Assembly: GCF_000331305.1 (NCBI RefSeq)
Contig: NZ_KB217478.1
Location: 7,967,481 to 8,031,480, forward strand
Source of the DNA: Calothrix sp. PCC 7103
GTDB lineage: Bacteria > Cyanobacteriota > Cyanobacteriia > Cyanobacteriales > Nostocaceae
DNA: 64,000 nucleotides
Direction of reading: 5' to 3'
Both the position numbers and the translations under genes were made by a program. Each line of letters opens with the position of its first letter. Position 1 is the first letter of the stretch. Positions 1-64,000 of the stretch are shown here, in pieces. The notes beneath the pieces were generated by a model. That model did not search any database, was not told the DNA's origin, and saw nothing but the letters and a program-made list of their open reading frames with translations.

Positions 1-37
1 CTTGGGTCGGCGCCGTTTATTCTAGGTATAGATGAAT

Positions 38-202
38 TTAAAATCTTTCTTTGTCAAGTTTTAAGTTTCTGGGTTTAAAACCATCTTTTAGTACATATAG
101 TGATATGGTATAGGCGCCAAAGTCACCGTATACGCAACCGTTTTTAAATCCAGATGGCATATCGGGTATAGTTGTGGCGCCTATTGAACCCATATATATC
201 AT
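38..202 (-). CDS. small hypothetical protein (54 aa), possibly a gene remnant
   Basis: A short open frame on the minus strand starts at ATG 202 and ends with TAA at 38-40. The product is 54 residues, rich in Gly, Tyr and Phe, with a charged C-terminus (KLDKERF). I recognise no family. The composition is protein-like and the frame contains two GGCGCC sites read as Gly-Ala, as in neighbouring genes. The frame stays open a few codons upstream of the ATG to a stop, so the ATG is the only standard start. It lies 110 bp downstream of the next minus-strand gene and could be co-transcribed with it. It may be a complete small gene or the C-terminal relic of a longer one. Confidence 0.4.
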   Translation of the reverse strand: MIYMGSIGATTIPDMPSGFKNGCVYGDFGAYTISLYVLKDGFKPRNLKLDKERF

Positions 203-311
203 TTGTATTTGTGATTTTACTTCTTGCCAAGTTTTACAATAGTATTATGTTAAACGCAATATAATTAAAGCTAGCGTGGATACAATTGCTTTGAATATAT
301 TACAATTTACT

Positions 312-662
312 TTATGTATAAAGGCTTTCTGCCTTACAATAAATTCTATTTGGTTGCGTCTCAAAGTATTTAAATAAAGCAGGACAAAGCCATCCTTCTA
401 GTTTTTTTTCACCCCATAAATACCAGTGTCCGTTATATTCTTCGCGTAGCCATATTAACTCCGCTTGATACCCAGGAAAAGGATTACCTGAAAATAAAAG
501 TTTGAAACCTTCGTCAGTGTTAGAAATATCTTTGACCAAAATGTCAATCATTTCGGGGACTCCACTGACAAACGGTTCTTGCACGAGTCCCACTCGTTCG
601 TCGTCGAATACCCAGGTTCCATTGTGTCGGTAAGGAAAAATAACTGCAATCGCATTACTCAT
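312..662 (-). CDS. conserved cyanobacterial hypothetical protein (DUF6717-like)
   Basis: Soluble protein of about 116 residues with no signal peptide or membrane segment. It is rich in aromatic residues and has the blocks FPYRHNGTWVFDD near the N-terminus, GVPEMIDILV, FPGYQAELIWLREE and EGWLCPALFKYF. From memory this pattern belongs to a small cyanobacterial family of unknown function, DUF6717. I prefer the ATG at 662 because the family begins close to the IFPYR block; an in-frame ATG at 683 would add seven residues. It is transcribed away from egtC. The molecular function is unknown. Confidence 0.65.
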   Translation of the reverse strand: MSNAIAVIFPYRHNGTWVFDDERVGLVQEPFVSGVPEMIDILVKDISNTDEGFKLLFSGNPFPGYQAELIWLREEYNGHWYLWGEKKLEGWLCPALFKYFETQPNRIYCKAESLYT

Positions 663-848
663 TACATTCTCACTTATTACCATAACTGTTGTTGAGACGA
701 CTTCTTTCTAGCGATGGGTTCCAAGCTTAACTGGCGCCACTACAATGTAAACTTATGTAAATATGCTGAGGGAAATACTCATTTAGTATTCAGGGGCTTC
801 TCAGGAATAACGTTTAATATGTGAAATTGTAAGGACAAATTTTAATTT

Positions 849-1637
849 ATGTGCCGTTTACTTGCTTATATTGGTACCCCTGTAAATCTAGAAACGCTTC
901 TATATGAACCAGAACATTCACTGATAGTTCAAAGTTATCAACCGCGTGAAATGCTTTCAGGTGTCGTAAACGCAGATGGCTGCGGCGTTGCCTGGTATGA
1001 TTTGAAAAAGGGTTCGGCGCCTTTTATTTATAAAAATACTCTACCAATTTGGAATGATATTAATCTACCAAGTATCAGTCGCTACGTGGAATCTAACAAT
1101 ATTTTAGCTTATGTGCGTAGCGCAACATCAGGTCAAGCGCTTGATATGAGCAACTCACAGCCGTTTCAATATAAGAACTTCTCATTTATCCATAACGGTC
1201 GTATTGATAAGTTTAAAAAGACTTTGTACAGGCCAATACGAACTCAATTAAGCGATGAAATTTACCAATGGATTGGTGGAAACACTGACTCAGAGCATTT
1301 TTTTGCAATGATATTAAATAAGCTCACTGCCAATCCTGATAAAACTATTGAACAAGCTGTACATGCAACGTTGCTTGAACTTAAAGAAATGGCGATAAAT
1401 TATGATACTTGTGCATTAGCAAATTTGGTTATTAGCGACGGTAAACGACTAGTTGCTTCACGTTATGCAACAAAACAACCTGCACCTACGCTTTATTGGG
1501 TTAAAAATGACCCAAATTTTCCGTCCTCAGTAATTATTGCTTCGGAACCGTTGTTTACTGGTAATTGGCAGGCATGTCCAGAAAATAGCATTATTAGTGT
1601 GGGAGAAGACTGTGATATTGAACTATTGCAAATCTAG
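849..1637 (+). CDS. egtC: ergothioneine biosynthesis protein EgtC (class II glutamine amidotransferase fold)
   Basis: EgtC removes glutamate from gamma-glutamyl-hercynylcysteine sulfoxide in ergothioneine synthesis. The protein is 262 residues and begins MCRLLAYIG, so Cys2 becomes the N-terminal nucleophile once Met1 is removed, as in Ntn-type amidotransferases. The block NADGCGVAWY and the segment FSFIHNGRI are typical of this fold. It is cytoplasmic, with no signal peptide. The gene overlaps the start of egtB by about 26 bp and is followed by egtD, which fixes the assignment over other class II amidotransferases. EgtA (gamma-glutamylcysteine synthetase) and EgtE are not in the window. Family and context agree well. 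Confidence 0.9.
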   Translation: MCRLLAYIGTPVNLETLLYEPEHSLIVQSYQPREMLSGVVNADGCGVAWYDLKKGSAPFIYKNTLPIWNDINLPSISRYVESNNILAYVRSATSGQALDMSNSQPFQYKNFSFIHNGRIDKFKKTLYRPIRTQLSDEIYQWIGGNTDSEHFFAMILNKLTANPDKTIEQAVHATLLELKEMAINYDTCALANLVISDGKRLVASRYATKQPAPTLYWVKNDPNFPSSVIIASEPLFTGNWQACPENSIISVGEDCDIELLQI

Positions 1638-2850: not shown

Positions 2851-2986
2851 GGCTTAATTTTAAATTGTAATCGCTGTCAATCTAGCTCAAGCGTGATGTT
2901 TTGAGACATTGCTTTGTGTTTCACTATCTGAATGCTTGGAAAAATAACTTGCAAGTAGCGAATATAACGTTGTATTCGGAGGGTCA

Positions 2987-4015
2987 ATGGCAATATCTAA
3001 TACTAATAGCAGTCAGACTATGCAGCAACAAATTGAGAAGCGTTTAGCAATTCAACACTTACGTTCTGTAACTGCTAGTCTAACAACAACTGCTGGAAGT
3101 GATGTAGTGAAAGGGTTAACCCAAACACCAAAAACACTACCTCCACGTTACTTTTACGATGATAAAGGTTCGGAGCTATTCGAGCAAATTTGTGAGTTAC
3201 CAGAATATTATGTTACGCGAACCGAAACTGCAATTTTACAAGAATGTGCGCGTGAAATAGCAGAGATTACAGGAAAATGTGAATTCGTGGAATTAGGCAG
3301 CGGTAGTTCAACGAAAAGTAGAATTTTACTTAATGCTTATCAAAATCTAGGTTTGCCATTACGGTATTTACCAATAGATGTAAGTGCTGGAATGTTAGAA
3401 AACAGTGCCAAGCAATTGTTATTTGATTATCCAACACTAGAAATTAGCGCACTTGCTGGGACGTATGAACTAGCTTTACAACAACTTCCAAAAAAACAAT
3501 TACCGTCTCGGATGATTGCTTTTATTGGTAGTACCTTGGGTAATTTAAATCCGCAAGAGTGTGAAATATTCTTTTTACAAATCACACAAGCATTACATTC
3601 AGAGGAGTATTTTTTATTAGGTATCGATTTGCAAAAACCAAAACATATTTTGGAAGCTGCATATAATGATAGTCAAGGTGTAACGGCTGCTTTTAACTTA
3701 AACATGTTAGAGCATATCAACTGGTTGTATAATGGTAACTTTGATACAACACAGTTTGAACATTTTGCATTTTACAACGAGAATGAAAATCAAATTGAAA
3801 TGCATTTACGCTCTTTACAACAGCAAACTGTAAAATTAAATGCGCTTAATCTAATTATTAATTTTGCACGCGACGAAACTATTATGACCGAAATTTCACG
3901 TAAGTTTGATATTGCTACCATTAAGCAGCAATTAAGCACACATGATTTGATAACTCAAAAAGTTTGGACTGACCCAAATAATTGGTTTGGTTTGTTGCTT
4001 TGCCAGTTACAGTAA
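2987..4015 (+). CDS. egtD: L-histidine N-alpha-methyltransferase EgtD
   Basis: EgtD trimethylates histidine to hercynine with S-adenosylmethionine, the first committed step of ergothioneine synthesis. The 342-residue protein has PPRYFYDDKGSELFEQI near residue 52, the SAM-binding block VELGSGSSTKSR at about 101-112, and FIGSTLGNLNP further on, all characteristic of the family. ATG 2987 is preceded by GGAGG with good spacing. It lies 136 bp after egtB in the same direction, so the three genes probably form one unit. The order egtC-egtB-egtD is unusual in that catalysis runs EgtD, EgtB, EgtC. It is convergent with the following Rieske gene. Confidence 0.92.
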   Translation: MAISNTNSSQTMQQQIEKRLAIQHLRSVTASLTTTAGSDVVKGLTQTPKTLPPRYFYDDKGSELFEQICELPEYYVTRTETAILQECAREIAEITGKCEFVELGSGSSTKSRILLNAYQNLGLPLRYLPIDVSAGMLENSAKQLLFDYPTLEISALAGTYELALQQLPKKQLPSRMIAFIGSTLGNLNPQECEIFFLQITQALHSEEYFLLGIDLQKPKHILEAAYNDSQGVTAAFNLNMLEHINWLYNGNFDTTQFEHFAFYNENENQIEMHLRSLQQQTVKLNALNLIINFARDETIMTEISRKFDIATIKQQLSTHDLITQKVWTDPNNWFGLLLCQLQ

Positions 4016-4027
4016 ATGAGTGCAATG

Positions 4028-4120
4028 GATACAACCGATGTAACGGATGAGTTATTGGTTACAAACAAAATCTTGTTATTTAAAATAAACTATCCGTTAC
4101 ATCCGCTCTTATCCGTTGCC
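4028..4120. repeat. ATCCGTTAC-type dispersed repeat, inverted pair between convergent genes
   Basis: CGATGTAACGGATGA (about 4035-4049) and TATCCGTTACATCCG (4091-4105) are near-perfect inverted arms between the convergent 3' ends of egtD and the Rieske gene. The last codons of the Rieske gene (VGNG and stop) lie in the right arm. Related ATCCGTTAC units occur at 7280-7307, 16778-16795 and 49149-49170. It may act as a bidirectional terminator. Confidence 0.5.
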
Positions 4121-5155
4121 AACTTGACTTTGCATTAACTTTTGCACGCTAACCAACGCGCGGTTTAACTCATAATTTTTACGTTCAGGGTTTTGTAAGT
4201 ATGCAAGTTGTTCTTCTTCTATCATCTTGACATCTTGCACTACTAACCCATCAAGTAATTTCTGTGCGGCGCCAAATAAGCTATCTTTAACAAAGCGTCG
4301 AAACCATATTGGCAACTTATGCAGGCGCCAAAATGCATTTAACGAAGTAAAGTGTACTAAATATGCTTTGGTTTCAGTCTCACTAATTGGACATAGCAAG
4401 CAATATATTTTAAAATCTTGACCTAACGTCGAAGTCCAATGCGGATAAACATAACTTACATCTAAAGGTTCTGGATGCAGGTGCCGTAATTTTTTGAAGA
4501 ATAACTGCGATATCGACCAGATTTTATCTATTCTATAATAACTTTGGGCTGTGTAGTGCGCGTCTACACGATTCTCATTCTCCATAATATTTTGAAGTTC
4601 CGCTTCTGCCCACGCTTGATAGTCCTCGTGTAAATGTCCATGATACATATCCATCAGGTTCTCAATTAAATATGAATAGTGCGCTTTGCAATGAATTGTT
4701 GAAACAGTCGCTATGTAATTCAAATGCTCCCATTCAGGTAAACCCATTGGTTGTGTTAATTGTGTTTCAACATCACCAGGAAATAACCAAATAAAACCAT
4801 CTTGTTCTTGAACAGGGTAACGACGAATTTTACAGCTTGGTAATTTTTGATTTTCTGCTAAGTATGGCACTTCTACACAGTTACCATTTTCATTTAGGCG
4901 CCAGCCATGATAAGCACACTCTAATGTATTATTTATAACTTTACCATGACTTAATTTAACTTGGCGATGTGGACAGCGGTCTTCTAGTGCGTGGATGTTA
5001 CCATTATAATCTCGATAAAGGGCAATCGCCTGTTTCCATAAAGTTACACCTACAGGCTGCGTATTTACCTCACAACTGCGCGCGACAACATACCAGTGAT
5101 TAGGATTAATGCCCAACTGACGAACATCACGACCAGATACAGCTTGCACAAGCAT
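4109..5155 (-). CDS. Rieske [2Fe-2S] ring-hydroxylating oxygenase alpha-subunit-like protein
   Basis: Probable non-heme iron oxygenase of 348 residues. The N-terminal Rieske domain has Cys61-x-His63 (CPHRQ) and Cys80-x2-His83 (CAYHGW) as ligands of the 2Fe-2S cluster. The catalytic domain has ENLMDMYHGHLHEDY near residues 165-179, supplying Asp169 and His residues for the mononuclear iron. No transmembrane segment is obvious, unlike the chloroplast pheophorbide oxygenase branch. The substrate cannot be read from the sequence. It is convergent with egtD, so adjacency to the ergothioneine cluster is not evidence of a shared pathway. The start MLVQAVSG at 5155 is accepted; its extreme C-terminus lies in a dispersed repeat. 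Confidence 0.8.
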   Translation of the reverse strand: MLVQAVSGRDVRQLGINPNHWYVVARSCEVNTQPVGVTLWKQAIALYRDYNGNIHALEDRCPHRQVKLSHGKVINNTLECAYHGWRLNENGNCVEVPYLAENQKLPSCKIRRYPVQEQDGFIWLFPGDVETQLTQPMGLPEWEHLNYIATVSTIHCKAHYSYLIENLMDMYHGHLHEDYQAWAEAELQNIMENENRVDAHYTAQSYYRIDKIWSISQLFFKKLRHLHPEPLDVSYVYPHWTSTLGQDFKIYCLLCPISETETKAYLVHFTSLNAFWRLHKLPIWFRRFVKDSLFGAAQKLLDGLVVQDVKMIEEEQLAYLQNPERKNYELNRALVSVQKLMQSQVGNG

Positions 5156-5221
5156 ATATATAAATAATTGATAGAGTTTTTACTTGAAAAGCGTAATTGT
5201 TTGATATTGTACCAATTTGCT

Positions 5222-5249
5222 GTAGAGACCGTATTAATTCGGTCTCTAA
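5222..5249. repeat. GTAGAGACC...GGTCTCTA palindromic repeat
   Basis: Arms AGAGACCG and CGGTCTCT flank TATTAATT, giving a short stable hairpin between the divergent Rieske and YbjN-like genes. A near copy is at 28885-28912, and related palindromes with AGAGACG or AGACGTG arms are at 9041-9066 and 24221-24240. Confidence 0.65.
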
Positions 5250-5385
5250 AATTTCGCTGGCGCCTATTTGCCCCAGTTTTAACACGTTCTTAATAAAACA
5301 ATGTTGTGCAGTTTCGCTCTCGCGCTTGTCGCACGCAAGTTATAAAGTAGGTGTAGTTAAACTATAAAAGCGAGGCGCCTTTTTT

Positions 5386-5862
5386 ATGACAAGTTACCAA
5401 GCTGTACCTGGCAATGTTGAAGACTTAATAGCTGAGGGTAAATCTATCAACTATATTGATGTTATTGAGAATGTTATTGACACTCTCGAACAAGATGATA
5501 GTGCAATGGTTAGTCAACCTCCCGAAGGTGGACATTTGTGGAAATTTAAGTATGGTAGTGTGGAAGTGTTTGTACAATTAACTGGTATAAGTGATGAAGA
5601 TACTATAACCGTTTGGGCTGTGGTTCTCAAGTTACCAGCAAAAGATGAACCGAAGTTAATGCGTAAGCTTTTGGAAATGAACTGTTCTAGCACTTTTGAA
5701 TCGCGCTTTGGTATTATCCAAAATCAAGTAGTTGTATTGGCTACACGTACTTTGGCTGAATTATCTGCAACTGAGGTATCGCGGTTAATAACTGTTGTGG
5801 CAACTATTGCCGATAATAACGATGACGCTTTACAATCAGAATTCGGAAGCTCTAATTTCTAG
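5386..5862 (+). CDS. YbjN domain-containing protein
   Basis: Acidic cytoplasmic protein of 158 residues resembling the YbjN / type III secretion chaperone-like fold found widely in cyanobacteria. The central part (GGHLWKFKYGSVEVFVQL, then DTITVWAVVLKLP) is beta-rich and is followed by an amphipathic helix KLMRKLLEMN and VVVLATRTLAELSATEV, the usual signature of these proteins. No catalytic residues are evident; relatives are thought to act as chaperone-like or regulatory proteins. ATG 5386 is preceded by GAGG inside a GGCGCC-containing stretch. The next gene starts 24 bp downstream, so they may be co-transcribed. Confidence 0.75.
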   Translation: MTSYQAVPGNVEDLIAEGKSINYIDVIENVIDTLEQDDSAMVSQPPEGGHLWKFKYGSVEVFVQLTGISDEDTITVWAVVLKLPAKDEPKLMRKLLEMNCSSTFESRFGIIQNQVVVLATRTLAELSATEVSRLITVVATIADNNDDALQSEFGSSNF

Positions 5863-5866
5863 CTTC

Positions 5867-5886
5867 TCACTCCTAACTCCTAACTT
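5867..5886. repeat. CTCCTAA heptamer repeat (STRR type)
   Basis: About two and a half units of the heptamer CTCCTAA fill the short gap between the YbjN-like gene and the following gene, reaching its start codon. The same heptamer is tandemly repeated at 13761-13800. Confidence 0.6.
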
Positions 5887-6615
5887 TTGAACAACTGGCG
5901 CCTAATTCCTTTAATTGAAGCATCTGGTGCTACCCAAATGGCAATCGATAAATGGTTGCTAGAACAACATTTATTGGGTAGTCCACCTGTATTAAGATTT
6001 TATACATGGGCGCCATCCGCTATTTCTTTAGGCTATCACCAGCATAAGTACCCTGAACATTGGCAAAATATTGTTTGGAAGGGACAAAAACTTGATTTAG
6101 TTAAACGTCCTACAGGTGGAAGGGCTGTTTTACATCAAGGTGATTTAACTTATGCTGTGATAACATCTGGATTGGATGGGACTCGGATGCAAGCTTATCA
6201 AAAAATATGTGAGTTTTTAATTGCTGGCTGGAAACAGCTTGGTGTATATTTACATTATGGTACGGCAGGACGTGGTTATATCCATAATCCTAATTGTTTT
6301 GGTACTGCTACAAGTGCGGATTTAGTTACTAATGATGGATATAAATTAATTGGTAGCGCACAGTTACGAAAGGGAAATGCGATTTTGCAACATGGCGCCA
6401 TTCAATTACAGCCTGATATAAACTTATTCTCTCAGGTTTTTGGTGAAGAGTCACGCTTTGGGCAGTTGTCTTTAAATTTTGATGTTGAAACAATTATTAA
6501 TGCTCTGGTAGATGCTGCAAGTAATTGTTTTAATATACATTTTGATATTCAACCTTTATCAGAGGATGAAATGCAACTTATGCTTTCAAATATCCAGCCT
6601 CAGCAAAATCATTAA
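5887..6615 (+). CDS. lipoate--protein ligase A family protein
   Basis: Member of the BPL/LplA/LipB cofactor-transferase fold, 242 residues, probably moving lipoyl or octanoyl groups between proteins. The family motif RPTGGRAVLHQGDLTYAV is at about 77-94, and GSAQLRKGNAILQHGAI near residue 156 includes the lysine expected to sit in the cofactor pocket. The frame starts at TTG 5887 (MNNWRLIPLIEASG); no ATG gives the family N-terminus, so TTG is accepted. A heptamer repeat occupies the site where a Shine-Dalgarno sequence would be expected. Its 3' end overlaps the convergent HD gene by 38 bp. Whether it acts in lipoylation or on another acyl group cannot be decided here. Confidence 0.8.
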   Translation: MNNWRLIPLIEASGATQMAIDKWLLEQHLLGSPPVLRFYTWAPSAISLGYHQHKYPEHWQNIVWKGQKLDLVKRPTGGRAVLHQGDLTYAVITSGLDGTRMQAYQKICEFLIAGWKQLGVYLHYGTAGRGYIHNPNCFGTATSADLVTNDGYKLIGSAQLRKGNAILQHGAIQLQPDINLFSQVFGEESRFGQLSLNFDVETIINALVDAASNCFNIHFDIQPLSEDEMQLMLSNIQPQQNH

Positions 6616-7168
6616 TCATTTGCTGTATAGCATCCCATAGTTCTGGTGTACCTTCCTCAACAGGCGCCATACGTTTCATGACTTGTTCGCGACTAATATT
6701 ATGCAGGCGCCAAGTTCCACCTTTTGTTTGTCCGTTATGTAAAAATGGCTGTATTCTATCTAAAGCAGCGGCAAATTTTGATGTTGGTGTATTTTGTTGC
6801 TCGAATTCTTCCCAAATTTTTCTTAGTTCTAATTCTAAATCGTTTGGTAAAAGTCCAAATATCCGATTTGCCGCTTCAATTTCGCGTTGAGCTTTGTTTA
6901 AGTTTGCTTGTATGTCGTAGCAGAATGTATCACCTGCGTCTATTTCTACTATGTCATGGATTAATAACATTTTGATGGCGCGTGATATATCTGTTTCAGG
7001 TGGTGCGTATTCGGATAGAATTATTGCCATGATGGCGATGTGCCATGAGTGTTCTGCGGTGTTTTCTCGACGGGAACTGTCGGTTAGTAGGGTTTGGCGA
7101 AGAATGTGTTTGAGTTTGTCTATTTCTAGAATGAATTGTATTTGTTGAGTGAGACGATTGTTTTGCAC
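6578..7168 (-). CDS. HD domain protein, YfbR-like hydrolase
   Basis: Probable metal-dependent phosphohydrolase of the HD superfamily, like 5'-deoxynucleotidase YfbR or related HD_3 proteins, about 196 residues. Metal ligands are visible as ENTAEHSWH (first His), LLIHDIVEIDAGD (the His-Asp pair) and a distal Asp in AALDRIQPF. The open frame reaches back to ATG 7234, but its first 20 codons run through a dispersed repeat (7206-7231) and do not look like protein. I therefore choose GTG 7168, which begins MQNNRLTQQIQFILEIDKLK. The substrate is unknown. The 3' end overlaps the convergent ligase-family gene. Confidence 0.78.
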   Translation of the reverse strand: MQNNRLTQQIQFILEIDKLKHILRQTLLTDSSRRENTAEHSWHIAIMAIILSEYAPPETDISRAIKMLLIHDIVEIDAGDTFCYDIQANLNKAQREIEAANRIFGLLPNDLELELRKIWEEFEQQNTPTSKFAAALDRIQPFLHNGQTKGGTWRLHNISREQVMKRMAPVEEGTPELWDAIQQMINDFAEAGYLKA

Positions 7169-7312: not shown

Positions 7313-8509
7313 TTATTCTTTTGTTGTGGATTTGGCAATTATTCCTAGCTGTAGCCCTGGTGGGTAGGTTCCATTTTGTTTGACTTGTTTGATGTCAGCA
7401 TCGCTAATTTTTAATTTTAGTTTTTTTGCTAGTGCTTGGATAATATCTCCTCTGTCTATTAAACCAGCAACGGCGCCTGCTGGTGAAAGTACTGTGACTC
7501 GCAGAAGTTTTTCGTCTTCGAGTTTGTTGATTACTTCTATTAGTGTGGCTGTTTCTTCGACGGTGGGAAGTTCTGAAAGAGGGTTAACTATTGCTTCTAA
7601 GGTTTTGGTTTCCCACTCGCTACGTTCTATTTGACGTAAGTTGTCAACGTTTACCATACCTCGGTAGCGTCCATCTGACTCAGCGAAGTAAATTTGTGAA
7701 TTGGAATCTAACAAATATAAGTCAGCAAACGCACGCAGGGGTTGGTTTGCGTCAACAACACGAAAGTCGCGTGTCATTACTTCGCAAGATTTAGTTTTTA
7801 ATAGTGTCTCTTGCAAAACTGTAACACGGTCGTAGCTTGTCGCGTTACGAATTCCAAACCACCCTAATAATGCAATCCATAGTCCTGTCCCTAAGTCACT
7901 TGTAAAATAATCAACTGCTAAACCAATCGCAATCGCAGTGTACCCTAAAATCTTTCCAGATAAAGCGGCGCCTCGTACTGCTTGAAATCTATTGCCCGTC
8001 ATTTTCCACAATGCTGCTTTTAATACTTGTCCACCATCTAACGGTAAACCTGGAATTAAATTAAATAGTGCTAGGACTAAATTTATACGTGCTAAGTCTC
8101 CAAGTATGGCATGTGTAAGTGAAGTATCAGAAAACACATTTGATATAAATTGCAGTACTATATATAAACCAATGCTTACTAGTGGTCCTGCTATGGCAAC
8201 TTGAAAAGCTTTACCTGGAGTTTTTGATTCTTCTTCAATTGCCGCAATTCCACCAAATAAAAATAAGGTTATTGAGTTAACTTTAATACCTTGTGACTTT
8301 GCAGCCAAGCTGTGGCCTAATTCGTGTAGTACAACTGAGCCAAACAACAGTAATGACATTATCACTGCGGCGCCCCAAGCCAAGCTGGCGCCCCATTGCT
8401 GGTAAGCAAAACCAAAATTTAGCGTTGCCAAGCCAAAAACTACAAACCACAACGGGTCTAAAAATAAAGGTATTCCGAACAAAGACCCTATTTTCCAATT
8501 TGCTTGCAT
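7313..8509 (-). CDS. site-2 protease family zinc metalloprotease with CBS domains
   Basis: Intramembrane protease of the M50 family, 398 residues. The zinc site is HELGH at 62-66 inside a membrane helix, and the third ligand is Asp158 in NLIPGLPLDGG, both diagnostic. About six hydrophobic segments fill residues 10-215. The C-terminal part (about 235-375) reads as a CBS pair, starting with CEVMTRDFRVVDANQP, which probably binds an adenine nucleotide and tunes activity. Such proteins cut membrane-bound regulators such as anti-sigma factors; the substrate is not evident. ATG 8509 has GGGAAA just upstream. It is followed by a dispersed repeat and the HD gene in the same direction. Confidence 0.9.
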   Translation of the reverse strand: MQANWKIGSLFGIPLFLDPLWFVVFGLATLNFGFAYQQWGASLAWGAAVIMSLLLFGSVVLHELGHSLAAKSQGIKVNSITLFLFGGIAAIEEESKTPGKAFQVAIAGPLVSIGLYIVLQFISNVFSDTSLTHAILGDLARINLVLALFNLIPGLPLDGGQVLKAALWKMTGNRFQAVRGAALSGKILGYTAIAIGLAVDYFTSDLGTGLWIALLGWFGIRNATSYDRVTVLQETLLKTKSCEVMTRDFRVVDANQPLRAFADLYLLDSNSQIYFAESDGRYRGMVNVDNLRQIERSEWETKTLEAIVNPLSELPTVEETATLIEVINKLEDEKLLRVTVLSPAGAVAGLIDRGDIIQALAKKLKLKISDADIKQVKQNGTYPPGLQLGIIAKSTTKE

Positions 8510-8519
8510 GATGTTTCCC

Positions 8520-9040
8520 GTTTAATAAATATTACTAATTGTATTAATAAAGTAGTATGCTTTTGCACTTATTGTACTATAGCTTGTAGAAGCGTGTAGT
8601 AATATGCTTCGTCAGATTTAATATCTCTAGCATAAACAATTGTAGCTCTTTGGATATTGAGCAGTTGACTCGCAAACCTTAATGTTTATATTGGCGTTTA
8701 ATTACCAATATTGTTCCAAGTGCAAATGATTATATTTTGATGAAATCAACCAGAACAATATGCATAATGGGCTACATCGACAGCTAGGTTTTTGCTATTG
8801 AAAGCGCTTGTGCCTATAAAATACCGATAGTATTTCAATTATATTGTAGCAGAAATGGATATGTATAAACGTAGATATCTTGAGATATAGAAGCAGCTTT
8901 AAGAAAAAATTAAAATTTATTAAATATATCACTTTTGGAATAATAAAAAATCAAAGTAATAAAAATATTTACCAGAAGGTGAGTAGTTATTTTGGAGTTA
9001 GAGTAATAACCTAGATATATAAAAATTTTGAATAAAAATA
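8520..9040. other. AT-rich gap without a recognisable gene
   Basis: About 520 bp between the divergently placed protease gene and the psaK pair. Short frames on both strands are unconvincing (low-complexity Asn/Ile/Lys). I see no RNA gene and no GGCGCC here. The only structure is the hairpin at its right edge. Confidence 0.5.
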
Positions 9041-9066
9041 TAGAGACGTTACATGTAACGTCTCTA
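9041..9066 (-). terminator. TAGAGACGTTAC palindrome downstream of psaK
   Basis: TAGAGACGTTACA and TGTAACGTCTCTA form a perfect 13-bp inverted repeat without a loop. Read on the minus strand it follows the second psaK and is trailed by TATTTTTATTC, so it can serve as an intrinsic terminator. It belongs to the palindrome family also at 5222, 24221 and 28885. Confidence 0.65.
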
Positions 9067-9098
9067 CAAGCAATATAAAATTTTTGATTCAAAATTAA

Positions 9099-9410
9099 CT
9101 AAAGAACACCAAGGTTGGTTAAACCTAAAACTGCGCCTATACCAACTATATGGCCAGTAGCCATTGCTGCAAGAAATGTACCAACACTGGGATTATTAAA
9201 TACTGAAGGGAAAGGTAATGGCATTTTATTGCCTACATGAGGTTCTTCGATTGTTCTGGGAATGATTAAAAGAGCTAATAAGCTGGCACCAACAATAATG
9301 ATAGTGCCAGTCCAGTTCCATTCAACAGCACTGTTAGGAACAGTTGGTTGAACAGCCGCTAAAAGCGGTATTAAATTAAATGACAAAGTAGATATGAATG
9401 TGGAAAACAT
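9099..9410 (-). CDS. psaK: photosystem I reaction center subunit PsaK (second copy)
   Basis: PsaK is a small two-helix membrane subunit at the periphery of photosystem I that binds chlorophyll and helps attach antenna. The protein has 103 residues. The C-terminal half ends [19 protein letters not shown], the diagnostic PsaK segment, and the first helix is [16 protein letters not shown]. It has a longer N-terminus than its neighbour ([20 protein letters not shown]), resembling a cleavable membrane-targeting sequence. ATG 9410 is preceded by AGGAG at good distance. It lies 133 bp after another psaK in the same direction. The two differ greatly in the loop and N-terminus, so this is an old duplication. 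Confidence 0.9.
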
Positions 9411-9543
9411 GGTTCTTTCTCCTACACGAACTTAACTTTGCTCTTAATGCTCGTTCGGATAAAGACTTGAATCTTCCATCTAAGGGGAGGAAATGACCTC
9501 CCCCTTTAGTTAGAATTACAAATGCCGTAAAATGTGCTGCATT

Positions 9544-9795
9544 TTACAATGTGCCAATGTTAGTCAGTCCTAAAACGATACCAATACCGACGACATGACC
9601 AAAGCACATTGCAGCTACAAATGCAGGAATGCTCATAGGCAGTAACGGCATTTTTGGACCAACCATTGGTCTTTCAATCTTTAAGGTGAGTAGCAGCGCA
9701 ACAAACGAGCATATGCTGATAATCAATCCAATTGTTGGATTCCAAGCGGGTGTTGCGGGAACATTAGCTGCAACTGCTAGTAAAACTGGATGCAT
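9544..9795 (-). CDS. psaK: photosystem I reaction center subunit PsaK (first copy)
   Basis: Second member of the tandem psaK pair and the upstream one in transcription order. From ATG 9795 it has 83 residues, MHPVLLAVAANVPATPAWNP at the N-terminus and FGHVVGIGIVLGLTNIGTL at the C-terminus, the standard PsaK ends. Two membrane helices flank a Pro-rich loop containing KMPLLPMSIP. I chose ATG 9795 over the in-frame ATG at 9831 because GAGGAG lies about 12 nt before it and the family starts here. A good sigma-70-type promoter lies just upstream (9842-9871). Multiple PsaK forms in cyanobacteria are known to be used under different light conditions. Confidence 0.9.
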   Translation of the reverse strand: MHPVLLAVAANVPATPAWNPTIGLIISICSFVALLLTLKIERPMVGPKMPLLPMSIPAFVAAMCFGHVVGIGIVLGLTNIGTL

Positions 9796-9841
9796 AAGCG
9801 CGGTTTTCTCCTCAGAGCGAAAACTTATCATAATCAGAAAG

Positions 9842-9871
9842 ATTATAAAAGTTTATAGTAAATAAAGCCAA
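9842..9871 (-). promoter_or_regulatory. predicted sigma-70-type promoter of the psaK pair
   Basis: On the minus strand a perfect -10 TATAAT (9842-9847) is preceded by TTGGCT (9866-9871) at 18-nt spacing. This would start transcription about 40 nt before the ATG at 9795. The second psaK has no such site in its short upstream gap and is probably transcribed from here. Confidence 0.5.
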
Positions 9872-9934
9872 TATTCTTTATTTATTTAGAATTACAGTAA
9901 AGTTAACTACGTTTCTTAAATTCTTAAAATTTAT

Positions 9935-10573
9935 ATGCGAATTAAAATTTGTGGAATTCGTGACCCACTACAAGGTCAAGCTATTGTGACTTCGGGTGCC
10001 ACTGCTTTAGGATTTATTTGCGTCGAATCTTCCCCACGTTACGTTAACGTCGAACAAATTAAATCGGTTGTAGCTTTAATACCACCTCATGTAGATAAAA
10101 TTGGAGTTTTTGCCAATGCACAACCAACAGAAATAGCATTTATAACTAATAATTCGTCATTGACAGGAGTGCAATTACACGGTAATGAATCTCCAGAATT
10201 TTGCAAACAAGTACGTGAAATTTTGCCAGGAATTGAAATAATTAAAGCGTTAAGAATACGTAATGTAGAAGATTTAGATAATACGGCAAGTTTTACTGAT
10301 TATGTTGATACCCTGTTATTAGATGCTTATCATCCTCAACAGTTAGGTGGAACTGGTCAAACTCTAGATTGGAACATCCTTGAGGAATTTAACCCAGGTC
10401 GTCCTTGGTTTTTAGCAGGAGGATTAACACCAGACAATATTGCCTCAGCACTAAATAAAGTCAAACCGAACGGAATTGACTTATCGAGCGGTGTCGAAAA
10501 GGCGCCAGCAGATAAAGATTTAGATAAAGTCGCAAAATTATTTGAACAGTTAGGAGTTAGGAATTCTCATTAA
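9935..10573 (+). CDS. trpF: phosphoribosylanthranilate isomerase
   Basis: TrpF catalyses the Amadori rearrangement of phosphoribosylanthranilate in tryptophan synthesis. The 212-residue TIM barrel starts [10 protein letters not shown], with the catalytic Cys at residue 6, and has [25 protein letters not shown] with the catalytic Asp, [11 protein letters not shown] for phosphate binding, and GIDLSSGVE. It is cytoplasmic and stands alone, as trp genes often do in cyanobacteria. The last codons (QLGVRNSH and stop) run into a heptamer-type repeat, so the extreme C-terminus derives from repeat DNA. It diverges from psaK and converges on folE. Confidence 0.95.
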
Positions 10574-10590
10574 CTCATAACTCCTAACTA
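10549..10590. repeat. AGTTAGGAGTT...AACTCCTAACT inverted heptamer repeat between trpF and folE
   Basis: The left arm AGTTAGGAGTT lies within the trpF 3' end and the right arm AACTCCTAACT lies just beyond the folE stop. They pair perfectly over 11 bp and form a likely bidirectional terminator between convergent genes. It is built from the same heptamers as 13761-13800. Confidence 0.6.
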
Positions 10591-11289
10591 TTAAAAGAAT
10601 GATGGTTGGTGACGAATTAAGTTGAAGAACTCTTCGCGCGTTTTTTGTTCGTCTTGGAATACACCAAGCATGGCACTAGTAACAGTCCAAGAACCGGGTT
10701 TTTGAACTCCACGCATAGCCATGCACATATGGGCGCCTTCCATAACTACAGCAACGCCTTGGGGTTCTAAAATTGTTTGAACAGCTTCAGCAATTTGACG
10801 GGTAAGACGTTCTTGCACCTGCAAACGACGCGAGTACATTTCGACGATGCGGGCAAGTTTACTAAGTCCAACAACTTTTTGGTTAGGGATATAAGCAACA
10901 TGCGCTCTACCCATAAAGGGGAGCATATGATGTTCGCATAAGCTGAAAAAGTCAATATCACGAACCAATACCATTTCGTTGTGCCCTTCATCGAAAATGG
11001 CATTATTAACTAGGTCTTCAAGCGACTGGCTATAACCACTCGTCAAGAAGCGCATCGCTTCTGCTACACGTTTTGGAGTTTTGAGCAGTCCTTCACGTTC
11101 CGGGTCTTCGCCAACACCTATAAGTATATTTCGTACCGCATCCTGCATTTGCTCCATATGCTCTTGGGTAGGTGGATGCAAATCAGGTGTCTTACCGTTA
11201 TGGGTATTACGGTCGGGTCTAGTACTGATGATATCAGTTAAATCAGGAATTAGCGGAGATTGAGAGCCGTTAGAACGAGCTATAGTCAT
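10591..11289 (-). CDS. folE: GTP cyclohydrolase I
   Basis: FolE converts GTP to 7,8-dihydroneopterin triphosphate, the first step toward folate and pterins. It has 232 residues. The zinc ligands are in [10 protein letters not shown] (Cys and His) and [11 protein letters not shown] (Cys). [11 protein letters not shown] and [16 protein letters not shown] are family blocks. The first 45 residues are polar and variable, normal for cyanobacterial copies. It is the last gene of a minus-strand series accA-SDR-folE. The gap to the SDR gene is filled with heptamer repeats. A folE next to the alkane genes is conserved synteny in several cyanobacteria as I recall, without a known metabolic link. Confidence 0.95.
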
Positions 11290-11334
11290 GATGTAAGTGT
11301 TATGTGATGTTTGTGTGGAATAGTTCTGAGTGCT

Positions 11335-11441
11335 GATTACTGAGTGCTGAGTAAAATACTGAGAGTCATGAGTTAGAAGTTATGAGTTAAGAGTTGTAAG
11401 TTACGAGTAAATACTCAGCACTCAGCATTTTCTACTCAGCA
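11335..11441. repeat. mixed GAGTGCTGA / ATGAGTT heptamer-type repeats
   Basis: The SDR-folE gap consists of GAGTGCTGA-type units, then GAGTTATGAGTTAAGAGTT-type heptamers, then ACTCAGCACTCAGCA in inverted orientation. It can fold into a long hairpin. No coding sequence is present. Confidence 0.65.
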
Positions 11442-11445
11442 CTAC

Positions 11446-12171
11446 TTAAAGAACTCCAGCACTTGGCATGAGAGTTAATTCATTAACGACTGCACCAGAA
11501 GGCAGTAGCGCAGTGTAAAGAATTGATTGAGCAACAATTTCTGGGGTGAGCATGTTGGAACGGTCAAAGTCCGCGTGAACGGTTTCGGTGTCCCAAAGTT
11601 CTGTATTTACTGAACCTGGGCAAAGTGCTGTGACGCGGATACCGTACTTACGCTCTTCGTGTGCTAATGTTTGTGACAGCGCTAACAAACCAGCTTTACT
11701 AACGCAGTAGGCGCCCCAGTTTGGAAAAGCTTGTTTACCTGCGATTGAAACGACGTTAATAATTGTACCCGTGCCGCGAACACGCATTGTGGGTAAAATT
11801 CCCTTGATGCATTCAAATACGCTGGTTAAATTTAAATCAATTACCCGTTGCCAGTCAGATAAAGGTGTTTCGCTCAAGTCGGCTGTATATGCCATTCCAG
11901 CATTATTTACAAGAATGTCAATATTACCAAAATCTTGTGCAATGTGTTGCATTTTTTCTTGGACTTCGCTAACAACGCTTAAGTCCACTGCGTATGTTTT
12001 TGCCTCTACTCCTGTATGTCGCACAGCTTCAGCTACTGCTGTGAGTTTTGGGAGAGAACGGCTAAGTAGAGCAACATCTATACCCGCTTTTGCAAAGGCT
12101 AAAGCTGTTGCTTTTCCAATTCCGCTACTTGCTCCAGTTATAAGGGCGCGTCGTTTTTGCTCGACAATCAT
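11446..12171 (-). CDS. short-chain dehydrogenase/reductase (SDR)
   Basis: Classical SDR, about 241 residues, NAD(P)-dependent. The cofactor motif is TGASSGIG near the N-terminus, NNAG follows, and the catalytic residues are Ser in NVVSIAGK with Tyr-x3-Lys in YCVSK. PGSVNTELWD is the usual post-catalytic motif. ATG 12171 is preceded by GGAG at 6 nt and gives a normal Rossmann start; an in-frame ATG at 12210 would add 13 atypical residues. It lies between folE and accA on the same strand, but a strong hairpin (12549-12595) separates it from accA, so it probably has its own promoter. The substrate is unknown. Confidence 0.85.
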   Translation of the reverse strand: MIVEQKRRALITGASSGIGKATALAFAKAGIDVALLSRSLPKLTAVAEAVRHTGVEAKTYAVDLSVVSEVQEKMQHIAQDFGNIDILVNNAGMAYTADLSETPLSDWQRVIDLNLTSVFECIKGILPTMRVRGTGTIINVVSIAGKQAFPNWGAYCVSKAGLLALSQTLAHEERKYGIRVTALCPGSVNTELWDTETVHADFDRSNMLTPEIVAQSILYTALLPSGAVVNELTLMPSAGVL

Positions 12172-12595: not shown

Positions 12596-12628
12596 AATTA
12601 TAACAAAAAAAAGTTTATTAGAGTATAT

Positions 12629-13801: not shown

Positions 13802-13805
13802 TTCC

Positions 13806-56896: not shown

Positions 56897-59404
56897 TTAG
56901 GGATGTGTTATTTCAACGACTGAGATTATTTTCTCGTCACGATTTAGTTGGAGGATACTTTCACCCGTACTATCGCGGTTTGAAAGTTTAACAGTATCAA
57001 TTGCCACACGGACTAATCGCTGTTGGTTCGTGATAAGTGCTACTTCTCCTCGTGATGTTGCATTTGTAATTCCGGCTAAAGCATCGGTTTTATTTGTAAA
57101 TTTACACGACTGAGTGCCAATATCACCTCGGTTCGCTAGTCGTAAATTCGAGAGTGAAATTTGTTTGGCATAACCCATTTGAGTTACCAGCAGTATATTA
57201 GTGGAATTTTTAACGCTCACGAAACCCGCCATTGTTTCGTTCAAACGTAGACGCATTGCTTGTAAACCCATTGCGGTGCGCCCCATTACTGCCAATTGTT
57301 CGTCATTTATTGCAAACCTTAACAGGCGCCCACCCGAAGAAGCAAGTACAACAGAGGCGCCTGGAAAAGTAAACTGTGTGGATAGCAGTTCATCATCGTC
57401 TTTAAGTTTGGTGATTGTAATACCGCGACGTGATAAGTTGCTAAACTCCATCAGCGATAATCGTTTAATACGTCCTTGCTTAGTCAAGAGAATCATTTCA
57501 TCATTTTGGGAATTCTCTGGCTGCATAAACCGAGTAATAATTGCTTCGGTGGCGCCTTGAGCGGTGTTACTAAGTAAAGTAATTAATGGAGTTCCACGAG
57601 CATTATTGCGTCCGCTTGAAACTGGAATATCACCAACTCGTATTGGATAAACTTTGGCGCCACTAGTAATGATAAGTAATTCCTTCTCGGTATTAGTATC
57701 TACCGTTTGAAGAATAAAATCGTTTTCAGATAAATTATTATCGCCCTTGGGTTTTTTACCGTTGGGTTGGGAACGTCGAACATAACCGCGATGAGTTAAT
57801 TCGAGTATTGTTTCTTCGCTTTTAACTTCGGGTTTTGAAGTTGGATTTGATTTTGTGTGGTCGTCGGAATTTTTCTTTGCTCCCTTCGGTGGCTCAAATT
57901 TCGCTTCAGCAGCGATACGAGTTCGACGCTCATCACCAAACTTTTTCTTCAAATATCGAAAATCTTTTTTCAGAGATTTTAGTAACTCCTTGCGGTCACC
58001 TAATAATCGTTGGAGATTAGTAATTTGCTCTCTGAGTTCGTTAAACTCGTGGGTTAAATTTTGTCGTTCTAAACCAGTTAGGCGCCTTAACGGCATAGCG
58101 AGTATGGCATCAGCTTGGACTTCGGTCAACTCTAATCGGCTGGCAATTTGAACTTTTGCCGTACTCCCATCAGGTGACTGTCGTAATATACTAATAAGTT
58201 CATCCAAATTTGACAAAGCTTTGAGCAAACCTTCTACCAAATGCGAGCGATTTTGAGCCTTGCCCAATTCATAAGTATAGCGACGTACTAAGGTTTGCTC
58301 GCGGAAACGTAAAAACTCAAGCAATAAATTACGTAAACTCAACTGCCTAGGCTGGCCGTCAACCAAAGCGAGCAAAATGGCGCCGAAGTTACTTTGTAAA
58401 GCACTTTGGTGATATAAAGCTTGAAGAATTTCATGCGGGTTAATGTCACGTTTAAGTTCAATAACAACGCGCATCCCATCCCGGTCACTTTCATCACGGA
58501 TATCAGAAATGCCATTTATCCGTCCTTGGTTAACAAGTTCGGCAATTTTTTCAATCCAACCCGCCTTATTTACCTGATAAGGTAACTCAGTTACAATAAT
58601 CGCCGTTTTGCGCTTCGTTCCTTTAGTTGCTGCGATTTCTTCAATTGTGGCAATTCCACGTAAAACAATACTACCCCGACCCGTAGTATAAGCCTCGCGA
58701 ATTCCCGAATCACCAACAATTTCCCCACCCGTTGGAAAATCTGGTCCAGGTATTAATTCAAATAGTTTGCTATCAGGTAATTCTGGATTATCAATGAGCG
58801 CAACCAACCCATCGACTATTTCATTTAAATTATGCGGGGGTATATTCGTCGCCATCCCCACAGCAATACCCGCACAACCATTGAGGATTAAAAATGGTAA
58901 CTGCGCTGGTAAAACAGTTGGTTCTTGCTGCGAATTATCAAAGTTGCCAATAAACTCAACTGTTTCTTCGCCAATTTCGGTCAACATTCCCTCATAACTG
59001 AGAGAAGCAAGACGAGTTTCTGTGTACCGCATTGCTGCTGGAGGGTCGTTATCAACGCTACCAAAATTACCGTGACCTGCGAGTAAAGGATAACGACTAG
59101 AAAAATCTTGCACCAGACGTACTAATGCATCATAAACCGATTGGTCGCCATGTGGGTGATATTTACCGAGAACGTCGCCGACTACGCGCGCGCATTTTCG
59201 GTAGGGTCGGTCAGGTGTAAGTCCTAATTCATGCATCGCGTATAAAATGCGACGGTGAACGGGCTTTAAGCCATCGCGGACATCGGGTAACGCTCGCCCG
59301 ACAATCACACTCATGGCATATTCAAGATAAGACCGTTGCATCTCGGTGTGCAAGGCTGTGGTGATTACCTGTCCCCCTGAGAGAAGGTTTAACTGTTTTG
59401 CCAT
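56897..59404 (-). CDS. gyrA: DNA gyrase/topoisomerase IV subunit A
   Basis: 835-residue breakage-reunion subunit of a type IIA topoisomerase. Catalytic Tyr127 is in [30 protein letters not shown] and [20 protein letters not shown] are standard (Gln at the quinolone-site Ser position). A coiled coil (about 430-490) includes [18 protein letters not shown]. After a charged linker (about 505-535) a C-terminal beta-pinwheel follows. I see no canonical GyrA-box QRGGRGG; the place reads [12 protein letters not shown]. It may therefore be a second, ParC-like copy rather than the true gyrase subunit. gyrB or parE is not adjacent. Confidence 0.85.
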
Positions 59405-62302: not shown

Positions 62303-62323
62303 GCACAGGCATTCTGCCTGTGC
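62303..62323 (+). terminator. GCACAGGCA...TGCCTGTGC hairpin after argB
   Basis: Nine-bp perfect stem with a TTC loop, eight bp beyond the argB stop. There is no clear T-run after it, but its position suggests transcript-end or mRNA-stabilising function for argB. Confidence 0.6.
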
Positions 62324-62328
62324 ATTAC

Positions 62329-62691
62329 CTACGGGAAACTATACATAAACACAGAACCTTTTCTTGGTTGGCGCCGATAATAAGGATTATTGATTATAGT
62401 TGGGTTGATAATAGTCGAGTTCCGAATATTAGGATTTACCAACACTGGGTTCACCAAGGTAGAGTCATTGACATACTGCCTGATATGTGGGCGCCTGTAT
62501 ACCCTAACTTTCGGAAAATAAATGTTATTACTAGGATTGTTAGGGAATAAACTATTTGTGGAATTTTGATCAAATAAATTGGTCTTGGGTGGAAATAAAC
62601 TGCGTCCTCCAAGTGGGGTTACGGGGTAAGAAGTAACATGGGGGTAAGCGTAGTTACTGGGCGTTCGCTTATTTTTAGAGTCGAAGAGGAA
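62329..62691 (-). pseudogene. Asn/Pro-rich open frame without a start codon
   Basis: The frame is open for 120 codons on the minus strand, from TAA at 62692 to TAG at 62329, with no usable start codon near its beginning. It reads like a low-complexity secreted protein: PSNYAYPHVTSYPVTPLGGR, then LVNPVLVNPNIRNSTIINPT and IINNPYYRRQPRKG. The neighbouring frame upstream (LLLSLSPQGINSSSTLKISE) might carry the displaced N-terminus. I take it as the C-terminal part of a broken gene. Confidence 0.4.
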
Positions 62692-62694
62692 TTA

Positions 62695-63263
62695 ATACCT
62701 TGAGGGGAAAGGGATAAGAGCAATCAGCAAGCTTGGCGCCAGAATCCTGTAATCTGTAAGACATGTTCGGGTTCAGGTATGCGTATGGTAGTAAGCAAAC
62801 AGGTAAAAATTAATTCTTATACTCGCAGTATAATCAGTGAGAGAATTAAGTTTTGGTAGAAATACCCAAATTCTGGGATACCAAGAGATAAAAATGTGAA
62901 TTATAAATATAGTTAAGTTACAGCCTTTAGTACAAGTACCATAGTATAAGCATAATAATTATCTAAAATTCATCATATTAATTGATTATTATCAATTAAC
63001 TCTAAAATGCATTAAAAATTAATACAAACAAAAATTATAAACTATACTTCAACACAAGCGTCCGTTGTAGCTAAAGGCTGCAACGACGCGGCTGGCGCCT
63101 ATGCTTAAATTAATGAACACGATGCTATAAAAATATATATGCACCACATCGTCCAGATAAAAGACAAAGCTTTAAAGAAAGAAATATGCTTTGGTGCCCA
63201 GTTAGCACAGACAAATAAATCTAATTATTATCATACAGTCTATACTAAGGAGTACGCTTATAA
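62695..63263. other. AT-rich decayed stretch before the transposase
   Basis: No gene with a sensible start was found. There are two GGCGCC sites. It probably includes the outer end of the insertion sequence, but I could not identify its terminal inverted repeat. Confidence 0.35.
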
Positions 63264-64000
63264 TTATGTTTTGTATTGCAACGAATCTAACTGATAAATA
63301 GATTCAGGCATTTTCATGGCGGAAAGAATTTGTTTTTGAAGCTCGTTGATTGGAGTAATAAAGATGGTAGAATCAGGAAGGAAGTAGAGAGTTAAATTAC
63401 ACAAAGCCTTAAGCATTTGCTCGGCAGACGGGCGACTGGTTTTTCGCTTTGGATTACCGTCATAAAGCCCAGCTAACGATTGCTGAGTTTCCATAAGCGC
63501 CTCCCGCATTACAAACTCCATCAAGGTGAATACTCGTAAAGCTATGTTTAAAATAAACATTAATCCCGTAATTCGGTTTTGGTTTTTAAAATAAATGGGT
63601 AGGGCTGGCAAAGAACCTCTTTTAAAACGATGAAAACCTCTTTCTAAAAGCCATTCATCCCGGTAATACATTACAGCTTGTGGTAACGTTAGTTGAATGA
63701 TAGGCGCATTAGTAACATATAATCGCCCCAAGCGCTAATTTTTCTGCCTCTTTAATTGCAGTATCAATCTTCTTAACATGAAGTTGAAGAGATATTTGAG
63801 TTGCTTCCTCGGTTAAAGAGTTTTTTGATGGTCGTCCCCGTCCAACATGGCGAGAATATTTAGTTATTTCTTCTGTAATTATGGTTGAGAAGAAATCGCG
63901 CTCCACGATAGCGCTTGAGAATATTTTCGACTTTACAACTGAGTTGCTCTTGGTTGTCTCCAGGTTTTGCCACTAATTTATTCAAAGCAGTTTGAGCTTG
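63264..64000 (-). pseudogene. IS1634/IS4-type transposase, frameshifted and cut by the window end
   Basis: The C-terminal part (63264-63731) contains the Y-x2-R-x3-E-x6-K-type signature (YRDEWLLERGFHRFKRG), then LPALPIYFKNQNRITGLMFI. Upstream, another frame (63709-63906) has VERDFFSTIITEEITKYSRH and VGRGRPSKN. A third stretch at the window edge reads LNKLVAKPGDNQEQL. The frames join around GGGGCGATTA (about 63720) and near 63903, so at least two single-base shifts break the gene. The N-terminus lies beyond 64000. It is an inactive mobile-element remnant. Confidence 0.75.

Follow-up and report, generated by a model that had tools for sequence, protein, structure and literature searches.

The GGCGCC word at the locus and in the genome

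We analyse here a stretch of 64,000 bases of Calothrix sp. PCC 7103 (contig NZ_KB217478.1, positions 7,967,481 to 8,031,480), called the window below (39.0% GC), in which the palindrome GGCGCC occurs 93 times as an alternate highly iterated palindrome (HIP), counted as a word without strand and scattered from the first site at 9 to the last at 63099. Two genes of the window are central to the analysis. One encodes an orphan DNA cytosine-5 (C5) methyltransferase of 313 aa (36989–37930, plus strand; PF00145, 5.9e-66), the solved structural relatives of which include M.HaeIII and M.HhaI. The other is a gyrA-like gene (DNA gyrase A or topoisomerase IV A; 56897–59404, minus strand), named by reading of its open reading frame (ORF) with no family scan, which we use as a linkage landmark and as the marker placing the genus.

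Against the 3.5 sites expected from the base composition, the 93 sites bear out the sequence-only reading, which had counted roughly ninety where a handful would be expected. Among the hexamers with at least 10 occurrences in the window, GGCGCC ranks top by over-representation (26-fold), and the hexamers ranking below it are mostly overlaps of GGCGCC itself. The maximal-order Markov model, built from words already containing GGCGCC, gives 48 for the window. In a wider sample consisting of the window and 20 other stretches, with 464,000 letters of which 443,900 are readable (stretch L097 is nearly all N), 799 sites stand against 34.6 expected by an order-2 model and against 17.1 when the motif is masked before the model building. 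The whole genome (11,584,393 bases, 12 contigs) holds 17,704 GGCGCC, 163 copies of GCGATCGC, i.e. of HIP1, and 8 of the reversed control CCGCGG, and thus the genome-wide counts are far from expectation. Nor do GC-rich hexamers unrelated to it show as large an excess; CGCGCG, which ranks first among the unrelated palindromes, reaches 6.2-fold by base composition in the window and 2.4-fold by the order-2 model in the wider sample.

With one copy in the window, at position 43719, and 163 copies genome-wide, GCGATCGC is not the iterated word of this genome, and it is GGCGCC that has the gross over-representation of a GC-rich palindrome by which an alternate HIP is recognised. The extended forms that had also been pointed out do occur in the window, but with 19 copies of TGGCGCCA against 16.8 predicted from 7-mers and 7 copies of AGGCGCCT against 8.4 they show no excess of their own; we therefore reject the extended unit and take the unit to be the hexamer GGCGCC. 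As a separate observation, the avoidance of other palindromes is strong in the sample of 443,900 bases, where GGCC stands at 0.13-fold and GATC at 0.19-fold, and where GTGCAC, CGTACG, GTCGAC, CCGCGG and CCCGGG have zero occurrences (CCGCGG 8 in 11.58 Mb).

The sites lie both in genes and in gaps, as had been claimed, with 72 inside the 40 ORFs used and 21 outside. It might be supposed that codon usage or base composition yields the excess, as 42 of the 72 sites within ORFs are read in the frame that yields Gly-Ala. However, shuffling the synonymous codons, which preserves the proteins and the codon usage, gives a mean of only 5.3 sites and a maximum of 11 (200 shuffles) in the window ORFs, a few starts of which were set by hand in this analysis and in the codon comparison given below, and a mean of 30.6 and a maximum of 39 (30 shuffles) against 546 observed in 220 ORFs of the 20 other stretches (one nearly all N). 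Moreover, GGCGCC is enriched in all three reading frames and outside the ORFs, where its density in the 20 stretches is 1.32 per kb with a denominator that includes about 20 kb of N. This supposition is thus already refuted, and we leave it practically no probability. Note also that the Gly-Ala dipeptide stands at 1.23 in the proteins of the window genome (G000) versus 0.81 in G095 of the sister genus, and at 1.27, 0.81 and 1.04 in G259, G205 and G256 of another family; the idea of a Gly-Ala excess as a trait of the genus was dropped, with 0.86–1.08 in five other members sampled (largely one syntenic region).

The spacing of the sites is Poisson-like (variance/mean 1.05), by which a regular spacing is rejected. 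Since, in addition, a palindrome cannot be polar, the role in segregation that the sequence-only reading had proposed is not supported.

The switch across the genus and the methyltransferases

That HIP1 has been switched for GGCGCC in this strain has already been published. According to Elhai (2015, PMC4390886), GGCGCC is the alternate HIP of Calothrix PCC 7103, its over-representation there far exceeding that of any other 6-mer in 97 genomes, and HIP1 stands at 14 per Mb; the strain is said to have two GRCGYC methyltransferases, with the standard 5-methylcytosine (m5C) CGATCG enzyme lost and an N4-methylcytosine (m4C) CGATCG enzyme present instead. The paper argues that exceptional HIPs are sporadic and do not persist in clades, regards the second methyltransferase copy as possibly critical, expects gains to stop near saturation, and does not settle which of the cytosines is the target of the GRCGYC enzyme. 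Among the literature matches listed, GGCGCC in Calothrix is the subject of no other paper. What is new here is the sharing across the genus, the gyrA-linked orphan enzyme, the HindVP neighbour of its homologue in the sister genus, the lack of matches to the m5C CGATCG-type family across the genus, the decay spectrum, the net loss and the finding that the second copy is not seen in two of the seven genomes.

The genus is represented by seven genomes, namely the source of the window, G127 (Dulcicalothrix desertica PCC 7102), G138 (Calothrix PCC 7716), G115 (NIES-4105), G076 (HK-06) and the metagenome-assembled genomes G030 (FI2-JRJ7) and G101 (C42_A2020_038). Among 192 genomes of the family, all seven of the genus have 7,475–20,380 GGCGCC and only 31–163 HIP1, while the other 185 have 0–1,053 GGCGCC, and 182 of these 185 have at least 990 HIP1 (the exceptions being G082 with 30, G022 with 535 and G154 with 574). 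By rounded genome sizes, GGCGCC occurs at about 1,150–1,711 per Mb in all seven, within the 1,000–2,000 per Mb of a HIP, and HIP1 is low where the alternate is high, as is expected of an alternate HIP; the density of HIP1 is 14.1 per Mb here (163 in 11.58 Mb) and spans 3.6–22.6 in the other members (rounded sizes). By GyrA the nearest other genus consists of G019 (Calothrix elsteri), G068 and G095 (80–81% identity; next 77%), and in this sister genus there are 4–5 GGCGCC and 5,938–6,966 HIP1.

These data support that GGCGCC stands in for HIP1 across the whole genus. The claim of a replacement thus holds at the level of genomes, but in gyrA it does not hold position by position. The window copy of the gyrA-like gene has 6 GGCGCC, and the copies in the three sister-genus genomes have none; within the genus the word occupies seven places in gyrA, none of them at a HIP1 position of the sister, and at 5–6 of the seven places the three sister genomes differ from GGCGCC by at least 2 bases. 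With gyrA alone examined, the growth of GGCGCC out of old HIP1 sites is rejected in favour of new places.

The enzyme at 36989–37930 is predicted to methylate GRCGYC, and with it GGCGCC. A gyrA-linked homologue is present in all seven genomes of the genus, in six of them at full length; in G076 the linked copy consists of two fragments at contig ends (95–96% identity), and this genome has an additional, full-length copy at another place (83%). The additional copy of G076 and the six full-length linked ones form one clade (100/99), with dN/dS of 0.05–0.14 among the six and 0.10–0.17 versus the additional copy. The methyltransferase falls into one group (97/95) together with family enzymes that include several HindVP-linked ones, and the homologue in the sister genus (70–72% identity) lies directly behind an RE_HindVP ORF (E 2e-154), the HindVP genes there adjoining a mutS-like ORF (L026, L027; mutS by reading, no scan). 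In C. elsteri the endonuclease ORF is shortened (305 aa versus 366). HindVP recognises GRCGYC. In a profile search RE_HindVP (PF09519) was matched in 42 of the 192 family genomes and in none of the seven of the genus, and thus of a HindVP-type restriction-modification system the C5 methyltransferase is present here and the endonuclease is not.

Outside the genus, the median number of GGCGCC is 5 (0–166) in the 36 genomes where the methyltransferase is accompanied by a HindVP match and 88.5 (2–277) in the 10 where it occurs without such a match, 4 of the 10 having at most 14; here the methyltransferase lists are hand-picked (full-length genes of 55% identity or more, excluding split or partial ones), and a HindVP match may be a fragment or a gene with stops. 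Genomes without a methyltransferase of the window type can be equally low in GGCGCC (4 in G095). So restriction goes with the avoidance of GGCGCC, the orphan enzyme goes at most with a relaxed avoidance, and the excess needs something more; as a sufficient cause the orphan GRCGYC-type enzyme is rejected, considering the mere 2–277 sites in the 10 genomes. A second GRCGYC methyltransferase copy is found in five of the seven genomes of the genus (in G076 as a 220-aa ORF) among the matches listed, and among those matches (E down to near 1e-24) none was seen in G127 and G101. By these matches, a second copy was therefore not needed to keep GGCGCC.

The clearest candidate for the extra factor is the loss of the m5C CGATCG-type methyltransferase. 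With a member from G052 as the query, this family is matched at E 1e-60 in 178 of the 185 genomes outside the genus and in none of the seven within it, in a search that did not extend to m4C enzymes. That the family reads CGATCG we infer from its near-universality and from PMC4390886. It is noted that the seven outside genomes without the family keep HIP1 (2,878–6,883). A change of GATC enzyme cannot be judged from the N6-adenine methyltransferases, since PF02086 has matches in every one of 60 genomes scanned, which include 2 of the genus, and is thus uninformative. As a side observation, the CGATCG-type methyltransferase of G052 (L137) lies between KfrA-like and DnaB-like ORFs, and in G076 (C60, L145) KfrA- and DnaB-like ORFs are adjacent and followed by a methyltransferase of the window type, the KfrA and DnaB names being given by reading.

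Conservation and decay of the sites, and the explanations weighed

The GGCGCC sites of the window are kept in the aligned congeners at 81 of 87 (G127), 62 of 71 (G030), 70 of 75 (G138), 53 of 65 (G115) and 21 of 35 (G101), as compared, in the same order, with fractions of 0.71, 0.71, 0.74, 0.51 and 0.45 for the other all-GC 6-mers and of 0.68–0.71, 0.71–0.76, 0.67–0.69, 0.43–0.49 and 0.30–0.40 for 6-mers with 0–5 G/C. Where the amino acid is conserved, the codons inside the word are identical more often than the same four codons outside it: 110/112 versus 431/538 in G127, 83/90 versus 391/475 in G030 (0.92 versus 0.82, p 0.01), 96/98 versus 382/494 in G138, 82/90 versus 256/438 in G115 (0.91 versus 0.58, p 2e-10) and 38/46 versus 115/245 in G101, with one opposite cell, CGC in G101 (3/7 inside, 39/72 outside). 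This conservation beyond the background fits selection, which the sequence-only reading had suggested, but a methylation-dependent repair bias fits it too.

The decay of the word has a definite spectrum. Of its nine pairs of one-base neighbours, GGTGCC/GGCACC, which the C-to-T change at the central CpG produces, is the only one clearly over-represented (2.22-fold, with 0.77-fold in the sister genome; next pair 1.03-fold). The four congeners lie at almost equal distances and their site patterns conflict, for which reason we use lineage-specific patterns. In the three-way alignment of G000, G127 and G138 (103,175 positions), 136 GGCGCC are common to all three genomes, 45 are absent from a single genome and 9 occur in a single genome, and the 45 losses comprise 29 central-CpG transitions, 8 other single changes and 8 multiple ones; 27 of the 45 fall to G000, the branch of which is also the longest (3,764 of 8,724 changes). 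The outer bases change at 16/(181 × 4) = 0.022 per position versus 0.085 overall. With G115 as the outgroup, the CpG transition makes up 14 of 26 GGCGCC losses versus 3 of 17 for other central-CG palindromes; with the transition set aside, there are 12 losses at 66 sites for the former versus 14 at 35 sites for the latter. We read this as a two- to four-fold protection of the outer bases together with an inner cytosine that mutates faster than the protection offsets, the word being in net loss. The spectrum suggests that the inner cytosine of GGCGCC is methylated, which bears on the choice of cytosine by the GRCGYC enzyme, and the link to DNA methylation that the sequence-only reading had proposed gains indirect support from this footprint and from the orphan methyltransferase.

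The explanation that we favour, and hold to be fairly probable as a whole, is that GGCGCC is an alternate HIP marked by an orphan enzyme of HindVP descent and sustained by a weak pressure depending on the mark. It builds on direct observations of the abundance, of the genus-wide switch, of the presence and absence of the genes, of the conservation and of the loss spectrum. In the ancestor of the genus, a GRCGYC-type C5 methyltransferase from a HindVP-type restriction-modification system would have persisted in the absence of its endonuclease, while the m5C CGATCG-type methyltransferase, which is otherwise nearly universal, was presumably lost and the HIP1 sites vanished. The orphan methyltransferase would mark GG(m5C)GCC, and a weak genome-wide pressure dependent on it would have raised and then held GGCGCC, whether through selection favouring a methylated GC word at intervals of 0.5–1 kb or through a repair bias. 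By the comparison of the three genomes, deamination of the methylated cytosine would now erode the sites faster than new ones arise. Following Elhai, we consider it most likely that the mark serves to label the strands in mismatch repair. We infer from sequence the specificity of the enzyme, its methylation of the word in vivo, the order of these events and the use of the mark.

Several points weigh against this explanation. The specificity assigned to the enzyme comes from the HindVP neighbour of its homologues and from the recognition sequence of HindVP. The 10 genomes outside the genus with the orphan enzyme all keep HIP1 in spite of it, and one genome, G096, which has the orphan enzyme and is without the CGATCG-type family at E 1e-60, has 6,883 HIP1. 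Moreover, according to PMC4390886, PCC 7103 carries an m4C CGATCG-specific methyltransferase, and CGATCG methylation may not be gone from the genus. The CpG transitions at GGCGCC (29/181 = 0.160) are no commoner than those at CpGs elsewhere (537/3,653 = 0.147), and therefore the hypermutation is visible just relative to the protected outer bases. The excess of losses over gains, 45 to 9, means that no strong drive acts now. In a design of overlapping trios, 33 of 169 GGCGCC are lost versus 286 of 1,252 for 63 other palindromes (106 of 327 for 63 other all-GC words), and with G115 as the outgroup 26 are lost at 66 sites versus 132 at 307 for the 63 other palindromes.

The closeness of these last two rates is what would be expected if GGCGCC were a neutral relic, amplified once in the ancestor and decaying without function ever since, as is the loss of 45 against 9 gained while losses and gains at other CpGs balance (537 to 500). 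Such a relic would, however, not be expected to have outer bases changing at about a quarter of the overall rate, nor fewer losses than other central-CG palindromes once the CpG transitions are set aside, nor synonymous codons retained more inside the word than outside it, and we regard it as unlikely. A correction of T:G mismatches in the manner of very-short-patch repair, which is known in E. coli for Dcm sites, would turn GGTGCC into GGCGCC and so enrich the methylated word. It should deplete GGTGCC/GGCACC; instead this pair is in 2.2-fold excess and is the commonest decay product, and very-short-patch repair is accordingly rejected, with only a very slight chance left to it.

A more serious competitor, although still a doubtful one, is the ratchet of Elhai, the published model for PCC 7103 (PMC4390886), by which GGCGCC is an epiphenomenon of repair: a nick directed by G-m5C would lead mismatch repair to keep mutations that create GG(m5C)GCC, up to about one per kb, without selection. 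The ratchet requires methylation of the inner cytosine, as the CpG footprint suggests, and gains per one-base neighbour of 2/60 and 4/27 in two overlapping trios look above the controls (71/8,454 for other all-GC words and 249/25,508 for other palindromes), the polarity in these trios being dependent on the outgroup. By contrast, the third trio, which overlaps the other two, gives 0/13 and the design with G115 as the outgroup gives 0/14; the word is in net loss despite an intact enzyme; the possibly critical second copy was not seen among the matches listed in G101 and in G127, which at 1,701 per Mb has the second highest density of the seven; and the nickase is hypothetical in the paper. The few gains together with the net loss speak against a strong ratchet at present, while saturation, near which Elhai's model expects gains to be scarce, would also give few gains.

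Returning to the orphan enzyme and its weak mark-dependent pressure, we put forward, tentatively, that the function of HIPs is independent of the word. What is needed may be a methylated GC-rich palindrome about once per kb, a resident orphan methyltransferase being able to supply the word once the CGATCG system is lost, and alternate HIPs might then be stable, inherited genus-level systems arising from dead restriction systems. The role of HIP1 is a long-standing question, for which a genus with both the word and the enzyme swapped provides a natural experiment separating sequence from function.

Further features, a possible second case and known systems

The strain-specific block at 40755–45665 (44.3% GC, no strand) aligns to none of G127, G138, G030 and G115. 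It holds the only HIP1 of the window, all four CGATCG (41620–43720) and 2 GGCGCC, and is probably recent foreign DNA without the host word. Since the block has no alignment in four congeners, the sequence-only reading was right in placing the single HIP1 in a block that looks foreign. At 32192–35483 lies the second C5 methyltransferase of the window (658 aa), directly followed by a 435-aa ORF with no match above the Pfam, NCBIfam or PADLOC cut-offs; this region belongs to a block that aligns with G127 but for the most part falls outside the long blocks aligned with G030, G138 and G115, and it may be a restriction-modification or defence island the partner of which goes unrecognised. Directly upstream of the methyltransferase gene at 36989–37930, a RuBisCO-like protein is encoded at 35700–36893, which is closest to 2,3-diketo-5-methylthiopentyl-1-phosphate enolase, below the cut-off of that model. 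The window also has a 775-aa protein of the STAND kind at 26035–28362, which has TPR repeats and weakly matches an NB-ARC/AAA-like ATPase, and at 63264–63731 a truncated IS1634-family transposase that scores just below the curated cut-off.

In a scan of 386 genomes from the phylum, G259, of another family, has 9,489 GGCGCC, as compared with 304–343 in its congeners G205, G256 and G270. G259 encodes at full length an enzyme from the broad family of the window methyltransferase (53%; L188:7874–8899), with no endonuclease-like neighbour recognised by reading; this enzyme falls in another subclade than that of the window. In the three congeners a similar enzyme was not found at a comparable score. 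HIP1 is at 74 in G259, at 134 in G205 and at 3,110 and 3,424 in the other two. We take G259 as a lead only and not as a proven replicate of an alternate HIP, because its word is wider than GGCGCC (AGCGCC 7.1-fold, GGCGCC 4.8-fold, with a CGGCGCYG-like word in excess), because the control word is raised too (2,450 versus 172–367 in the congeners), and because in G205, where HIP1 is lost as well, the sample shows no word that has taken its place. If true, it would be an independent second case, a replicate in another family, though with the wider word. G395 (2,493 GGCGCC versus 38 for the control in the genome) is rejected as a further case, having 2,362 HIP1 and 8 GGCGCC versus 7.1 in 25,551 readable bases.

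Finally, we compare GGCGCC with known systems. Signals of the KOPS or Chi kind for segregation or recombination have strand polarity, whereas GGCGCC is its own reverse complement, with the Poisson-like spacing given above. With the HindVP-type restriction-modification system (GRCGYC) it shares the methyltransferase, the homologue of which stands beside RE_HindVP in the sister genus, but the endonuclease is unmatched in all seven genomes and GGCGCC is hugely over-represented, not under-represented. HIP1, which goes with GATC and CGATCG methyltransferases, is likewise a GC-rich palindrome found about once per 0.5–1 kb in genic and intergenic DNA and linked to an orphan methyltransferase; the GGCGCC system differs from it in the sequence and in the methyltransferase, the m5C CGATCG-type family being not found in the genus at E 1e-60. 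PMC4390886 also describes other alternate HIPs with matching methyltransferases, namely rCCGGy of Oscillatoria PCC 10802 and GCsGC of Cyanothece PCC 7822, which have other words; here a homologue of the GRCGYC-type enzyme, with predicted recognition of GGCGCC, is present in all seven genomes. The system that Elhai described in PCC 7103 is the same in its word, in its low HIP1 (14 versus 14.1 per Mb) and in its link to a GRCGYC methyltransferase. By contrast, what the paper treats as the sporadic state of one strain is common to seven of seven genomes of the genus, and such persistence is at odds with the argument made there that HIP1 alone, and no exceptional HIP, is maintained in clades.

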